Assembly (NCBI GenBank): GCA_015059785.1
Contig: SUZS01000001.1
Span: forward strand, 62,001 to 126,000
Source: Rikenellaceae bacterium
Lineage (GTDB): Bacteria > Bacteroidota > Bacteroidia > Bacteroidales > Rikenellaceae
Direction of reading: 5' to 3'
DNA: 64,000 nt
In this document: one piece after another, positions 145 through 54,062 of the stretch
How positions within the stretch are numbered: the stretch's first letter is position 1
Layout of the letters: each line of letters opens with the position of its first letter
Translations under genes and position numbers: made by a program
Notes under the pieces: model-generated
What the model was told of the DNA's origin: nothing
Database searches by the model: none
The model's input: the letters and a program-made list of their open reading frames with translations, nothing else

Positions 145-265
145 AAATCTGATTTTAGGTGAGGATTTACAAGGCTCAATGAAAAATGCCTGCGCTAAAT
201 TTCATTTTAAGTAGGAAGTTACAACGCTCGGCAAAAAATCCCACCGATGAATTGCACAAAGTCAA
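145..265. repeat. two degenerate half copies of the long-hairpin repeat
   Basis: The left arm of the hairpin at 266-392 occurs about three times in tandem. A close copy starts near 145 (ATCTGATTTTAGGTGAGG) and a diverged one near 199 (TTCATTTTAAGTAGGAAG); the third is the arm of the full element. The 93-390 gap holds no convincing gene: the 67-aa ORF at 176-379 is a translation of these repeats. A short GGCTAAT/AGCCAAT array lies at about 123-145. Confidence 0.7.
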
Positions 266-392
266 AAAATCTGATTTTAGGTGAGGATTTACCACGCTCA
301 ATGAAAAATGCCTGCGCAGGATAGTACCAAGTAGTACAGCCCAGCAGGCATTTATCATTAGCGGCAGTAAATACCGCATAAAATCAGATTTT
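266..392. repeat. 127-bp long-hairpin element, copy 1
   Basis: This is a near-perfect inverted repeat with arms of about 60 bp. The outer ends are AAAATCTGATTTT and AAAATCAGATTTT, and the core is GGATAGTACcaagtaGTACAGCC. It overlaps the mdh stop codon (391-393), so on the minus strand the stem begins at the TAA of mdh. Other full copies with the same core but different arms lie at 19296-19425 and 42011-42136. Confidence 0.8.
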
Positions 393-1344
393 ACAGAGCG
401 CCGATTTCGTAGAGAGCACCATTAACCTTACGTACTGCCTCAGCAGCTGCGTCGAACTTAGCCTTCTCCTCCTTAGTGAGGTCTACCTTAACGATCTTCT
501 CAATACCCTTCTTACCGAGAACTACAGGTACGCCGAGGCAGATATCCTCCTGACCATACTCGCCCTCAAGAAGAACTGAGCAAGGAACGATAGCCTTAGT
601 GTCGTTGATAATAGCGTCAACAACATAAGCACCTGCAGAACCTGGAGCATACCAAGCAGAGGTACCGAGCAGACCTGTAAGAGTAGCACCGCCGACCATA
701 GTATCAGCAGCAACCTTCTCAAGGCTCTTCTTTGAGAGGAACTGAGATGCAGGAACACCCTTAATTGTAGCCTTAGAGGTGAGTGGAACCATAGTAGTAT
801 CGCCGTGACCACCGATAACCATACCGTCGATATCCTGGATACCTACGCCAGTAGCCTTAGAGAGGTAGCAGCGGAAACGAGAAGAGTCAAGAGCGCCACC
901 CATACCGATGATGCGGTTCTTCTTAAGACCTGTAGCCTTGAGTGCAAGGTAGGTCATTGTATCCATAGGGTTAGAGATAACAACAACGATAGCCTTTGGA
1001 GACCACTTAAGAGCGTTACCAACAACACCCTTAACGATACCTGCGTTGATACCGATAAGCTCCTCACGAGTCATACCTGGCTTACGAGGGATACCAGAGG
1101 TAACAACAATTACATCAGAGTTTGCAGTTGGCTTGTAGCCCTCTGCATCTGTAGCTGTAACACCTACGAGCTTAGTCTTGTAGCCCTGAGTAGCAGCAGC
1201 CTGGAACATATCCAGCATCTTACCCTCTGAAAGACCGTCCTTGATATCAACAAGAACAACCTCGCTTGCAACGCCGCGGCAAGCCAATACATTTGCACAA
1301 GTTGCACCTACTGCACCTGCGCCGATAACTGTAACTTTTGACAT
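391..1344 (-). CDS. mdh: malate dehydrogenase
   Basis: NAD-dependent malate dehydrogenase of the LDH-like family (317 aa, normal length), which interconverts malate and oxaloacetate in the cytoplasm. The N-terminus has the Rossmann glycine motif GAGAVGAT (residues 8-15). The substrate loop IPRKPGMTR carries the arginines expected for malate rather than lactate, and the catalytic histidine motif is GGHGD. It lies 30 bp downstream of gcvH and is probably cotranscribed from the gcvH promoter. Its stop codon is the first base-paired triplet of a long hairpin repeat, which may act as its 3' end. Confidence 0.95.
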   Translation of the reverse strand: MSKVTVIGAGAVGATCANVLACRGVASEVVLVDIKDGLSEGKMLDMFQAAATQGYKTKLVGVTATDAEGYKPTANSDVIVVTSGIPRKPGMTREELIGINAGIVKGVVGNALKWSPKAIVVVISNPMDTMTYLALKATGLKKNRIIGMGGALDSSRFRCYLSKATGVGIQDIDGMVIGGHGDTTMVPLTSKATIKGVPASQFLSKKSLEKVAADTMVGGATLTGLLGTSAWYAPGSAGAYVVDAIINDTKAIVPCSVLLEGEYGQEDICLGVPVVLGKKGIEKIVKVDLTKEEKAKFDAAAEAVRKVNGALYEIGAL

Positions 1345-17818: not shown

Positions 17819-17828
17819 TTTTAGATGG

Positions 17829-18703
17829 CACGACCGCTCAAAGTAACGCCATTTTGTTATTTTGAGTGAGATTTTGCAAGGCTTGCGAAGGCGAGAAAAG
17901 CGTAGCATACTAAAGGTATGTGAGCATTTACGAGACGAGCATAACGCGGCATGACCGCTCAAGATAGCACCATTTTGTTATTTTGAGTGTGATTTTGCAA
18001 GGCTTGCGAAGGCGAGAAAAGCGCAACATACTACTCGTATGTGAGCATTTTTAAGACGAGTGCAATGCAGCACAACCGCTCAAAGTAGCACCATTTTGTT
18101 ATTTTGAGTGAGATTTTGCAAGGCTTGCGAAGGCGAGAATAGCGTAGCATACTAAAGGTATGTGAACATTTTTGAGACGAGTGCAATGTGGCACAACCGC
18201 TCAAAGTAACACCATTTTGTTATTTTGAGTGAGATTTTGCAAGGCTTGCGAAGGCGAGAAAAGCGGAGCATACTAAGCGTATGTGAGCATTTTTGAGACG
18301 AGTGCAATGCAGCACAACCGCTCAAGGTAGCACCATTTTGTTATTTTGAGTGAGATTTTGCAAGGCTTGCGAAGGCGAGAAAAGCGCAGCATACTAAAAT
18401 GTATGTGAGCATTTGTGAGACGAGTGCAATGCAGCACGACCGCTCAAAGTAACGCCATTTTGTTATTTTGAGTGAGATTTTGCAAGGCTTGCGAAGGCGA
18501 GAAAAGCGCAGCATACTAAAATGTATGTGAGCACTTCCGAGACGAGTGCAATGCGGCACGACCGCTCAAAGTAACGCCATTTTGTTATTTTGAGTGAGAT
18601 TTTGCAAGGCTTGCGAAGGCGAGAAAAGCGGAGCATACTAAGCGTATGTGAGCATTTTCGAGACGAGTATAACGCGGCAAAAGCCGCTCAAAATAACAAA
18701 AAT
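17829..18703. repeat. tandem array, seven copies of a 121-122 bp hairpin unit
   Basis: The marker TTTTGTTATTTTGAG occurs at 17852, 17973, 18094, 18215, 18336, 18458 and 18580, with spacings of 121, 121, 121, 121, 122 and 122. Each unit is itself an imperfect hairpin: CATACT-loop-GTATG in the middle, and the outer parts GTTATTTTGAG and CTCAAAGTAAC pair. Copies differ by scattered substitutions, concentrated around the loop. The array fills the whole ftsW-hslR gap and ends at the base before the hslR ATG. The minus-strand ORFs and the N-terminal extension of the hslR ORF are translations of the repeat. Confidence 0.9.
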
Positions 18704-19117
18704 ATGGAGGTTAGATTAGACAAATACTTATGGGCAGTCCGCATCTTCAAGACAAGAAGTGATGCTGCGGATGCGATAAGAAATAACCGTGTTACGGTCA
18801 ATGGTAGCTATGCCAAGCCGTCGCGCGAGGCAAAGGTGGGAGATAAGATAGATGTGAAGAGGGGTATGATAACCTACTCTTACCTTGTCACCGAGCTTGT
18901 GGCTAACCGTCAGCCGGCGAAAAATGTTCCGCAGTTCTGCCAGAATATTACCCCACAGACCGAGCTTGACAAGCTCAATGTTCCCCGCGAGACAATCTTT
19001 GTCTTCCGCGAGCGTGGCACCGGCCGCCCAACGAAGAAGGAGCGCCGCGAGATTGACGCCGTCATGGACGAGATGTTTGTTTACGACGAGGATTTTGACC
19101 TTGATGATGAAGATTAA
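18704..19117 (+). CDS. hslR: S4-domain RNA-binding protein, heat shock protein 15 family
   Basis: A 137-aa protein with an N-terminal S4 RNA-binding domain (VRLDKYLWAVRIFKTRSDAA, residues 3-60) and an acidic tail, the layout of HslR/Hsp15. In E. coli, HslR recognises 50S subunits with nascent chain still attached and helps recycle them. The ORF track begins at 18590 inside the tandem array; the extension is repeat-coded, and MEVRLDK is the natural start. Its 5' untranslated region is therefore made of the 121-bp repeat, which may affect its expression. Confidence 0.85.
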   Translation: MEVRLDKYLWAVRIFKTRSDAADAIRNNRVTVNGSYAKPSREAKVGDKIDVKRGMITYSYLVTELVANRQPAKNVPQFCQNITPQTELDKLNVPRETIFVFRERGTGRPTKKERREIDAVMDEMFVYDEDFDLDDED

Positions 19118-19217: not shown

Positions 19218-19295
19218 AGCTTTACTTTCGGAATAGGAGGAATAGGATTTGAAGATCAAGCGATAAGCGTTCGCATCGCTTCAATAGAAAAGCAA

Positions 19296-19425
19296 TTTTT
19301 GTTGTCAAAATGCGGTAGATGCAACGCTCGGCGACAACTGGCTGTCGCAGGATAGTACTAAAACGTACAGCCAAGCAGCCATTTGGTGCTAGCGGCAGCA
19401 GATGCCACATTTTCACAACAAAAAA
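19296..19425. repeat. long-hairpin element, copy 2
   Basis: A 130-bp inverted repeat with ends TTTTTGTTGTCAAAATG and CATTTTCACAACAAAAA and core GGATAGTACtaaaaCGTACAGCC. The core matches copies at 266-392 and 42011-42136, while the arm sequence differs. It sits at the 3' side of the original tRNA-Leu transcription unit. Confidence 0.8.
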
Positions 19426-19446
19426 GAGAGACTCAGCAGTCTCTCC
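19420..19446 (-). terminator. ancestral terminator of tRNA-Leu
   Basis: On the minus strand GAGAGACTgctgAGTCTCTC is followed by TTTTTTG, a classical intrinsic terminator. Before integration of the element it would have lain just downstream of tRNA-Leu. It is now separated from that gene by 5.6 kb. Confidence 0.75.
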
Positions 19447-30192: not shown

Positions 30193-30663
30193 ATGGCAGT
30201 AATGAAGAAAAAGGGCGAGCGCGAGGTTCCTGCAATGTCAACAACCTCACTGCCCGATGTAGTATATATCATCCTCTTCTTCTTTATGCTCTCTACCTCA
30301 ATGCGTGACCAGGAGCTGATGGTTAAATACCGTCTCCCAGAGGCTACTGAGGTTCAGAAGCTCGAGAAGAAGAATCTCGTGAGCTACATTCACATTGGTG
30401 TACCAGTTCTGCATATGCAGGCAAAGTATGGTACTGCACCACTGATTCAGCTCAACGATTCGTATAAGACAACTAAGGATATCCTTGACTTTGCAGCAGC
30501 AGAGCGCGATAAGCTTTCAGAGGCTGACCGTGCATCAATGACAATCTGTCTTAAGGCAGACGGCGGCACAAAGATGGGTATCATCGCCGATGTAAAGCAG
30601 GAGCTCCGTCGTGCTAACGCACTGAAGATCTCTTATGCTTCATCAAAGGTGCTGAGTTATTAA
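30193..30663 (+). CDS. exbD: ExbD/TolR biopolymer transport protein (second)
   Basis: A 156-aa paralog of the preceding gene, of normal length. Its membrane helix (LPDVVYIILFFFMLSTSM) keeps the key Asp. Two different ExbD subunits beside one ExbB are the rule in Bacteroidetes and suggest a hetero-dimeric ExbD in the channel. A strong terminator follows at 30686-30710. Confidence 0.9.
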   Translation: MAVMKKKGEREVPAMSTTSLPDVVYIILFFFMLSTSMRDQELMVKYRLPEATEVQKLEKKNLVSYIHIGVPVLHMQAKYGTAPLIQLNDSYKTTKDILDFAAAERDKLSEADRASMTICLKADGGTKMGIIADVKQELRRANALKISYASSKVLSY

Positions 30664-30685
30664 TACTCAGAGCGTATGCAAAAAA

Positions 30686-30710
30686 GGAGAGGATTTCCTC
30701 TCCTTTTTTA
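30686..30710 (+). terminator. terminator of the exbB operon
   Basis: GGAGAGGAtttCCTCTCC followed by TTTTTTA; a perfect 8-bp stem with a T-tract, 22 bp after the exbD stop. Confidence 0.85.
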
Positions 30711-30835
30711 TTTTGTTGTTAAAAGGTAGCATTTGCTGCGTTGCACTTCAATAACCGAGCTGCTCACATACGCTTTAGTATGCTGCGCGCTCGGTTTCTT
30801 GTGCGCCTGGCAACTACTACCTTTTAACAACAAAA
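30711..30835. repeat. 125-bp long hairpin, different core
   Basis: Ends TTTTGTTGTTAAAAGGTAG and CTACCTTTTAACAACAAAA are a perfect 19-bp inverted repeat. The arms continue imperfectly to the core CTCACATACgctttAGTATGCTGCG. The core is the reverse complement of the CAGCATACT...GTATGTGAG core of the 121-bp tandem units at 17829-18703, so the two belong together. Confidence 0.75.
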
Positions 30836-31112
30836 TGGCTATTAGCTATTGGCCTTACAGAGGTACAGACTTCGTCTGTCTCTGTTTATTCGGATTTAGG
30901 GAAACTCTCGCAGAGAGTACGATGAAAAATAGAGCCTCACTCAAGCTTGCTTGAAAGTGAATGGCTCTATTTATTGTTGTGATAGTGGCTAAAGCATAAA
31001 GAGATTGCTACGCATAACAGAGAGTTTAAGGAAGTTAGGGAATTTAATGAATATAGGGGGGCCTTAAACTCACTAATCTCCTTAATCTCTTTACTTATCA
31101 GCCAAAACTAAC
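30836..31112. repeat. intergenic repeat island between exbD and the DUF3467 gene
   Basis: There is no gene here. It holds a GGCTATTAGCTATTGG 7-nt array, a GTACAGACTTCGTCTGTCTC module, the CGGATTTAGGGAAACTCTC module with an AGAGCC/GGCTCT stem (about 30890-30975), a TAAAGAGATTGCTACGCA module, and a 9-nt-period TTTAAGGAAGTTAGGG hairpin (31020-31091). The same modules recur at 41781-42010, 52472-52800 and 62964-63580. Confidence 0.65.
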
Positions 31113-41780: not shown

Positions 41781-42010
41781 GCATAGCTGACGCGAACTGC
41801 CCGCTTTTTGAAAAAAGCAGGGCGTGCAAAAACTTTTGGCGAAACTTTGTTTCGCTTATCTCTGATGCGGATTTAGGATAGCCTTGCGGCTAATTATAGT
41901 GAGTTTAAGGAGTTTAGTGAATTTAAGGAGAATTACTCCCTATATTCATTAAACTCCTTAATTTCCTTAAATTCTCTGTTCTGCGTAGTAATCTCTTTAG
42001 CCAGCGGTCG
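41781..42010. repeat. intergenic repeat island between sppA and fba
   Basis: There is no gene here. Modules: a CCCGCTTTTTGAAAAAAGC hairpin with a GCAAAAACTTTTGGCGAAAC tail (about 41800-41850), TGCGGATTTAGGATAGCC, a 9-nt-period hairpin (41901-41978, TTTAAGGAG/CTCCTTAAA), and CTGCGTAGTAATCTCTTTAG. The order and content mirror the islands at 30836, 52472 and 62964. Confidence 0.65.
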
Positions 42011-42136
42011 TTTTGTCGTCAGAGTGTGTCAGATACGGTGCATCGTGAAAAAAAGCAGTGGCGGATAGTACTAAAAGGTACAGCCGCCACTGATTTTTAA
42101 GGGATGCGCCGTAGGTGGCACACTATCACGACAAAA
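42011..42136. repeat. long-hairpin element, copy 3
   Basis: A 126-bp inverted repeat with ends TTTTGTCGTCAGAGTGTG and CACACTATCACGACAAAA and core GGATAGTACtaaaaGGTACAGCC. On the minus strand it starts at the base after the fba stop codon (42137-42139). A truncated relative of its right arm lies at about 52769-52805. Confidence 0.85.
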
Positions 42137-43135
42137 TTATGCTTTGCCGTTAGATCCAAGAACATTCACGATCTTGTGAATATACTGCTTCTTCATATTC
42201 TCACGAGCAGGACCGAGGTACTTACGAGGGTCAAACTCTGCTGGCTTTGTAGCGAAGACCTCGCGGATAGCTGCGGTCATAGCAAGACGAGAGTCAGAGT
42301 CGATGTTAATCTTGCAAACTGCGCTCTCAGCAGCCTTACGGAGCTGTGACTCAGGAATACCTACAGCAGCCTTAAGTGCGCCGCCATACTTGTTGATAGT
42401 CTCAACCTCCTCCTGTGGCACTGAAGATGAGCCGTGGAGAACGATAGGGAAGCCTGGAAGCTCCTTCTCAATAGCTGCAAGAACATCAAATGCCAATGGT
42501 GGTGGCACGAGGCGACCAGTCTCTGGGTCGAGTGTGCACTGCTCTGGAGTGAACTTGTAAGCACCGTGTGAAGTACCGATAGAGATAGCGAGGCTATCGC
42601 AACCAGTCTTAGTTACGAAGTCTACAACCTCCTCTGGCTTAGTATAGTGGCTCTCCTCTGCGCAAACCTCGTCCTCAACACCTGCAAGAACGCCAAGCTC
42701 GCCCTCTACAGTTACATCGAACTGGTGAGCATACTCTACAACCTTCTTTGTAAGAGCTACATTCTCCTCATATGGGAGGTGTGAGCCGTCAATCATTACT
42801 GATGAGAAGCCCATATCGATACAGCTCTTGCAAGTCTCGAAGCTGTCACCGTGGTCAAGGTGAAGAACAATCTGTGGGTTCTCCCAGCCAAGCTCCTTAG
42901 CGTACTCTACAGCACCCTCTGCCATATAGCGGAGAAGGGTCTGGTTTGCATAGTTACGAGCACCCTTAGAAACCTGAAGGATTACTGGAGACTTAGTCTC
43001 TGCTGCAGCCATGATGATTGCCTGCAACTGCTCCATGTTGTTGAAGTTGAAAGCAGGAACTGCGTAGCCGCCGTCAATAGCCTTTGCGAACATCTCGCGA
43101 GTGTTCACAAGACCGAGATTCTTGTACGAAATCAT
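42137..43135 (-). CDS. fba: class II fructose-bisphosphate aldolase
   Basis: A zinc-dependent glycolytic and gluconeogenic aldolase (332 aa). Metal and substrate motifs: LHLDHGDSFE, EGELGVLAG, and VLHGSSSVPQE with the zinc histidine. SIGTSHGAYKF is also typical. The long hairpin repeat begins directly after its stop codon and may serve as the mRNA 3' end. The promoter is at 43180. Confidence 0.95.
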   Translation of the reverse strand: MISYKNLGLVNTREMFAKAIDGGYAVPAFNFNNMEQLQAIIMAAAETKSPVILQVSKGARNYANQTLLRYMAEGAVEYAKELGWENPQIVLHLDHGDSFETCKSCIDMGFSSVMIDGSHLPYEENVALTKKVVEYAHQFDVTVEGELGVLAGVEDEVCAEESHYTKPEEVVDFVTKTGCDSLAISIGTSHGAYKFTPEQCTLDPETGRLVPPPLAFDVLAAIEKELPGFPIVLHGSSSVPQEEVETINKYGGALKAAVGIPESQLRKAAESAVCKINIDSDSRLAMTAAIREVFATKPAEFDPRKYLGPARENMKKQYIHKIVNVLGSNGKA

Positions 43136-53973: not shown

Positions 53974-54062
53974 GTTTGTTTGTCACTATGTGCTTCACTG
54001 ATTCGAGGCGCATAGGGGTTCCTATGTAACGAGAATCAGGGGTGCAAAGAGTTGTAACAAAC
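53974..54062. repeat. 89-bp long hairpin, another core
   Basis: Ends GTTTGTTTGTCAC and GTTGTAACAAAC, inner arms CTGATTCGAGG/CGAGAATCAG and core GCATAGGggttCCTATGT. The architecture is the same as the other long hairpins, with unrelated primary sequence. Confidence 0.6.

Follow-up and report, generated by a model that had tools for sequence, protein, structure and literature searches.

The window, a stretch of 64,000 nucleotides of Rikenellaceae DNA, contains a near-perfect palindrome of 127 bp, whose 27-nt outer arms were recovered by an inverted-repeat search and are 93% complementary (Table 1). The strand with the core CTCACATACGCTTTAGTATGCTG is referred to as F and its complement, here the minus strand, as R. 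Alistipes, Nitrospirota, Chlorobiaceae and ERIC all keep the left anchor as AACGCAG. The hairpin lies directly behind the terminator of the upstream gene and not on a stop codon, an exception to the stop-abutting placement described below. The first-pass annotation had described it as carrying the reverse-complement core of the 121-bp units of a nearby tandem array between different arms, and this description is accurate: CTCACATACGCTTTAGTATGCTG is the reverse complement of the core of the array units (17827–18698), and the outer arms differ. An Rfam scan of the window returned nothing above the gathering score except two tRNAs, and phage and plasmid collections gave no match to the hairpin.

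Table 1. Features of the window; positions count from its first nucleotide, and R1 and R2 are covariance models described in the text.
Feature	Position	Strand	Evidence or remark
Core-B (GGATAGTAC) member	264..396	+	R1 31.4 bits, E=3.4e-6; R2 53.3 bits
Tandem array, seven 121-bp units, each assigned to the superfamily	17827..18706	+	R2 matches 17849-18706
Core-B member	19294..19427	+	R1 29.5 bits, E=1.3e-5; R2 55.6 bits
Ordinary intrinsic terminator of upstream gene (30193-30663)	30680..30709	+	Sequence
Whole hairpin	30710..30836 (model match 30707-30838)	-	Inverted repeat; minus is the better-folding R strand
Left outer arm, subfamily (i), ATTTTGTTGTTAAAAGGTAGCATTTGC	30710..30736	+	Inverted repeat; same arm type occurs on core-B elements
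Left anchor CTGCGTTGCAC (R strand GTGCAACGCAG)	30736..30746	+	Alignment of copies
Core CTCACATACGCTTTAGTATGCTG	30763..30785	+	R strand AG-CATAC-loop-GTATG-TGAG, conserved G.U closing pair
Right anchor GTGCGCCTGGCAAC (R strand GTTGCCAGGCGCAC)	30801..30814	+	Kept as TGCAAGGCGG / GCAAGGC
Right outer arm GCAACTACTACCTTTTAACAACAAAAT	30810..30836	+	Inverted repeat
Core-B member	42008..42140	+	R2 47.4 bits, E=8e-10

Relatives were sought with three covariance models, whose E-values are rough owing to short calibration: R1, built from 22 Alistipes-type core-A copies only; R2, a broad model that includes four Rickettsia copies and zero ERICs; and R3, derived from 12 ERICs alone (alignment A5). The window hairpin scores 132.6 bits with R1 and 126.5 bits with R2. 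It had been taken for a single copy, which it is not: the source genome yields 82 R2 matches and 37 R1 matches (about 80 copies), dispersed and intergenic, with E-values down to 1e-30. A BLAST-like search recovered nine full or near-full relatives (84–94% identity; relatives at this level lie on contigs C12, C34, C9 and C45), together with many core-only matches, and the core pattern, at no more than two mismatches, occurs 14 times in the genome against 0 for a reversed control pattern. The copies split into subfamilies that have the core in common and differ in their outer arms.

Two classes of core, CTCACATAC (core A) and GGATAGTAC (core B), are recognised by one model and have anchors and outline in common. 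An element at C8:14293 matches the window hairpin at 28/31 and 25/28 positions of its outer arms, while its inner part is unrelated (37/74); this sharing of arms, together with the recovery of core-B members by R1, a core-A-only model, indicates that arms and cores have been recombined. Core-A and core-B hairpins almost certainly form one family. The earlier proposal of several independent hairpin families thus fails for two of its three groups, which one model recognises and which have anchors and outer arms in common. The supposed third group of the same kind, an 89-bp palindrome at 53974–54062 with the core GCATAGG/CCTATGT, finds no support, as R2 gives it only 17.1 bits (E=0.32) and does not recognise it. 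At loci L010, L083 and L117, at L024 412–645 and at L025 311–420, the right arm is interrupted or supplanted by an additional repeat module (GGCTTAATCGCGGCGTTG ... CCGAGGCGGAGC...), which resembles a different repeat that entered at the anchor. Elements also have recurrent neighbours in purine-rich runs, for example TTAAGGAGTTTAGTGAATTTAAGGAG, accompanied by inverted copies (window 41905–41961 and 31040–31110; L024 673–760).

The elements fold, and their fold is maintained by compensation. In an ungapped alignment of 22 copies (A1), a single long stem accounts for 91.2% of cells as paired, and 25 of 36 pairs are compensated on both sides (0/500 shuffles; slid controls 28–42%). An alignment of 66 copies from four groups (A2) gives 88.3% paired cells, 641 doubly changed cells and double compensation at 33 of 36 pairs (0/500 shuffles; slid controls 31–45%). 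Constant core and variable self-complementary arms, the rule proposed from the first reading, hold across these 66 copies, and the cores did not turn out to be random once more copies were seen. Where no pattern demands it, the core stem itself varies, to TTTAC/GTAAA in the source genome and CGTAC/GTACG in Rickettsia. Both the fold and its compensation are beyond reasonable doubt.

The two strands are not equivalent. R folds better than F by a mean of 4.9 kcal/mol, in 41 of 54 copies, and retains an advantage of 3.8 kcal/mol when the core is swapped for a symmetric hairpin (32 versus 11, p=3e-5); among ERICs the advantage has the same sign in 12/12. The better folding of R implies that G.U (or G.T) pairs are tolerated on that strand. 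R is also antisense to the gene whose stop codon carries the element, an arrangement that would be easier to reconcile with single-stranded DNA that folds, or with an antisense RNA, than with a 3'-UTR hairpin on the sense strand, although selection on RNA could account for the strand asymmetry instead.

Comparison of orthologous copies indicates how the arms change. Among the arm pairs, 57 changed on both sides and still pair, 35 changed on one side and still pair, 77 are broken and 1175 are unchanged. At about eight orthologous stop codons, flanks are 72–92% identical and the elements just 53–65% identical, and behind one and the same gene end (GCAATGAAATAA) a core-B element at L065 corresponds to a core-A element at L068. 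At an operon site in two Rahnella species (flanks 86% and 78%), a contiguous arm block was replaced on both sides, with core, anchors and outer ends kept. Change of arms in place is ruled out as the sole source of variety by elements that are wholly different at some orthologous stop codons, where replacement or re-insertion must also occur. The ortholog counts and the block replacement thus show two routes by which arms vary, compensation on the one hand and replacement of blocks or re-insertion on the other. Active regeneration of arms, in which template switching in the hairpin would rewrite one arm from the other and change both in concert without selection, could be read from the Rahnella site, with its two-sided block change around an intact core and anchors, and from Chlorobiaceae outer palindromes that differ copy by copy. 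Single-side changes (112) nevertheless outnumber double ones (57) in orthologous copies, and conserved bulges and mismatches persist that full correction would erase, which makes template switching a quite improbable source of the arms. Compensatory drift and block exchange suffice, and a dedicated mechanism that generates arms, of the kind suggested earlier, is not needed.

Outside the source genome, the elements are widespread and patchy. A core scan of genome contigs returned 82 stretches, nearly all from Rikenellaceae and mostly from Alistipes MAGs; the non-Alistipes hits comprise some labelled Rikenellaceae, one Tidjanibacter, and two each from a Rickettsia and from Nitrospirae. R1 gives 88 matches in a Rickettsia endosymbiont and 87 in Tidjanibacter, while two Nitrospirae have 7 and 24. 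With R2, matches were found in 15 of 39 genomes of the source family, in 38 of 297 genomes of the source phylum, almost all of them in one family (f18, in which the Chlorobiaceae FMO protein is present in 4/4 genomes tested), with about 34 Chlorobiaceae carriers, and in 48 of 105 genomes of the order of the Rickettsia genome. Surveys of over 40 genomes used stricter filters and scored few candidates per genome, so that their copy numbers are lower bounds. Copy number is very uneven: one Rikenellaceae genome (G325) and Tidjanibacter (G004, L098) have at least 87 matches each, G315, also of Rikenellaceae, has 27, and most relatives have 0. Such genomes offer useful pairs for finding a mobilising gene.

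The Rickettsiales matches lead to a repeat that is already known, RPE1. The NCBIfam family TIGR01045 (RPE1) matches the translations of two Rickettsiales hits, L252 (E=8e-16) and L248 (E=1.1e-19), the former lying in an open frame of 353 codons. R1 and R2 match these two and a third RPE1-type locus, L162, over their full length; at L162, R1, which was built without Rickettsia copies, gives 56.3 bits (E=3e-13). There is accordingly little doubt that RPE1 belongs with this superfamily.

The relationship to ERIC was recovered in both directions. On two E. coli loci, R1 ranked the ERIC first, weakly (12.4 and 11.1 bits). Run without filters over 49 kb of E. coli DNA, R2 returned exactly two matches at E<=10 (22.1 and 19.3 bits; E=0.009 and 0.057), both of them the ERICs found there by BLAST; on Klebsiella and Rahnella plasmid stretches, it again placed the ERIC first (22.5 and 20.5 bits) and missed that at L188, with 4/5 ERICs on top overall. 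Conversely, when 89.7 kb of loci from Chlorobiaceae, Nitrospirota, Rikenellaceae and Rickettsia were scanned with R3 unfiltered, the top 24 matches all fell on elements and on the right strand, the best with 36.9 bits (E=9e-9), as compared with 14.4 bits (E=0.12) for the first stray; the window hairpin was matched at L125 1505–1628 on the minus strand with 25.8 bits (E=2.9e-5). The anchors TGCAAGGCGG and CCAACGCAGCA are letter-for-letter alike in a Salmonella ERIC and in Chlorobiaceae. Convergence of unrelated hairpins on long stems might be considered, given that every one of them is a long AT/GC stem at the end of a gene and that ERIC and the other elements score only modestly against each other in absolute terms; yet place, strand and register come out the same with models run in either direction, the anchors are in places identical letter for letter, and the result of the ERIC-only model largely refutes convergence, leaving it highly improbable. 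ERIC very probably belongs with this superfamily, a placement held only slightly less firmly than that of RPE1. The R strand of an E. coli ERIC (L123 392–515) also matches the Rfam family RF02818 V_AS5 (Vibrio RNA AS5) over 1–129, with 48 bits (E=7e-8), below the gathering score of 96; V_AS5 is an RNA annotation and not a repeat family, and Vibrio RNA AS5 looks like a transcribed ERIC R strand.

ERIC, RPE1 and the Chlorobiaceae, Nitrospirota and Rikenellaceae elements form one superfamily, and the Alistipes hairpins are a new branch of a known type of repeat. A review tabulates ERIC and RPE as distinct families (PMC2229807). The literature searched, with thin coverage of subscription papers, nowhere connects ERIC to RPE or to elements of Bacteroidota, and an earlier report is possible.

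Where the elements sit relative to genes is distinctive. When each is read in F orientation, the left-hand gene points at the element in 89 of 106 cases, and 78 of these genes end within 20 nt of it, versus 6 on the right side. In a set dominated by Rikenellaceae, 71 of 81 copies abut a stop codon, whereas uniform insertion in the gap would give 22.0, and 0/100,000 simulations reached the observed number. The end of the palindrome overlaps the stop codon itself, as TAA 70 times, TAG 20 times and TGA 5 times. The stop-abutting placement holds for 8/8 copies in Tidjanibacter, 11/14 in Nitrospirae and about half of the source-genome copies sampled. Among Chlorobiaceae copies the orientation bias is absent, and in the ERIC sample a one-sided orientation is not evident, copies abutting genes on either side; stop-codon orientation is therefore not a property of the whole superfamily.

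The GAPDH gene illustrates this placement. In the source genome it ends ...MKAYNK-TAA directly at an element; of 30 relatives checked at the same stop, 28 have an ordinary terminator 20–40 nt further on and 2 have elements, of different subfamilies, while a third Alistipes (L111) carries yet another subfamily. As the GAPDH stop is the same in relatives without an element, the elements sit on natural gene ends. Simple replacement of a terminator was considered and rejected, since some subfamilies end in A-runs/T-runs and others (CGACAAAAT, CAACTTCTT) do not. In another Rikenellaceae genome, the element on the GAPDH stop (L223 2103–2230) has a changed core, with a TTTGC/GCAAA stem, and A-run/T-run ends that would make a two-way terminator. 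Elements at the Chlorobiaceae loci L192, L196, L204 and L215 lie inside larger palindromes peculiar to each copy, some of which close with a T-run (AGGCACCACTATTAATT...AATTAATAGTGGTGCCTTTTTATTTTTTT), as though the stems of terminators had been their targets.

Placement at gene ends is also what a 3'-UTR hairpin would show, one selected on upstream genes as a terminator, RNase site or ribosome staller and spread by recombination rather than transposition. Copies abut stop codons and covary with G.U pairs, E. coli REPs no more than 15 nt from stop codons stall ribosomes (PMC12306157), an ERIC at the 3' end of Yersinia genes alters transcript levels (PMC10969869), and the ERIC R strand weakly matches Vibrio RNA AS5. 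Against such an RNA element, the better-folding strand is antisense to the abutting gene, RPE1 copies occur inside genes, and occupancy of a given stop is sporadic, as at GAPDH (2/30 loci, each with a different subfamily); on balance, an RNA role of this kind is unlikely to be the explanation. That stop-codon placement reflects insertion preference rather than selection has slightly less than an even chance of being correct.

The reading that we favour, with fair though far from complete confidence, takes the hairpin as a mobile but non-autonomous palindrome, about 125 bp long, that belongs to one superfamily with ERIC and RPE1 and is recognised as a folded single strand. Each copy would be read as one such strand, R. 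At its apex is a short hairpin, AG-NNTAC-loop-GTANN-TGA(G), in which one G.U pair and an internal loop are fixed, and the strand also carries two asymmetric anchors, 5' (T)GCAAGGC and 3' (C)AACGCAG. Apical hairpin and anchors would be held constant because something binds them, whereas the arms would need only to pair, so that compensatory drift and block swaps between copies would leave a constant core between variable arms. Copies would spread in trans, and in Rikenellaceae and Nitrospirota they would land, or be kept, on stop codons in one orientation, perhaps because sequence after the stop is harmless or useful there. Mobility in trans is in itself probable; recognition of a folded strand stands at even chances, and is favoured over recognition of terminal repeats because the centre and the anchors are conserved and the ends are not. 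The pattern noticed at first would be explained in this manner, the conserved part being a folded recognition unit and not terminal repeats.

An ordinary MITE, in origin a deleted insertion sequence and dependent on a transposase acting at the terminal inverted repeats (for example of the IS630/Tc1 type, with TA targets), would likewise give dispersed, near-identical copies of about 125 bp with terminal inverted repeats. TA is frequent at the element ends, many of which read TA...TA, and a review gives TA at ERIC termini (PMC2229807); TA is not universal, several junctions being TG|A. The arrangement of variable terminal repeats around a conserved centre is the reverse of that in a MITE recognised by its ends, and the source genome, which is 89% complete, has no match to the IS630-type DDE_3 domain (PF13358), which speaks against an IS630/DDE_3 identity and makes the MITE reading improbable. 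The RAYT / Y1 transposase domain (PF01797) has no match in this 89%-complete genome either, although control genomes do match, and a REP/RAYT identity was rejected on this basis; searches with these two domains revealed no autonomous partner or mobilising gene there. An exact empty site preserving both flanks was not recovered. The most far-reaching form of the folded-strand reading, in which ERIC, RPE1 and the Rikenellaceae, Chlorobiaceae and Nitrospirota hairpins are one ancient cross-phylum element, moving as a folded single strand and inserted in a fixed orientation at gene ends by a putative recombinase or nuclease whose recognition would cover the apical hairpin and anchors and leave the arms free provided that they pair, is tentative and, taken whole, doubtful. 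With core and anchors shared between ERIC, RPE1 and elements of three other groups, the identity of the mover and the role of the conserved part merge into a single problem, approachable by comparing carrier with non-carrier genomes.

Among known systems, ERIC (IRU / RU-1) is closely similar: at 124–131 bp it has the same fold, the same anchors (AAGGCGG, AACGCAG), sporadic intergenic copies, a better-folding R strand, and a core of the form AG-CTTAC/CATAC-loop-GTAAG/GTATG-TGA with a G.U closing pair, the CATAC/GTATG stem of a Rahnella ERIC being identical to that of the Alistipes core. It differs in an inner stem, CCCCAG/CTGGGG, and a GA/GA internal loop unlike those of the Alistipes elements, and in its hosts, described as Enterobacteriaceae and Vibrionaceae (PMC10969869), whereas copies with the window core are nearly all from Alistipes/Rikenellaceae. 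RPE1 has the core AG-CGTAC-loop-GTACG-TGAG, a compensated form of the Alistipes core, but has one open frame and may lie within genes; the window hairpin has a TAC-TAA stop in the corresponding frame and no ORF for the RPE1 peptide. REP and BIME elements are also palindromic, intergenic and often no more than 15 nt from a stop codon, but REPs measure 20–40 bp and are tied to a Y1 transposase, of which none was found in the 89%-complete source genome. Integron attC sites are imperfect palindromes that immediately follow a stop codon and have a fixed orientation; their gene-complementary strand folds, and their arms can vary. The likeness in orientation, folding strand and freedom of the arms may be taken as a functional analogy only. 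The attC site conserves its ends (the R boxes) and varies its middle, and here the reverse is found.
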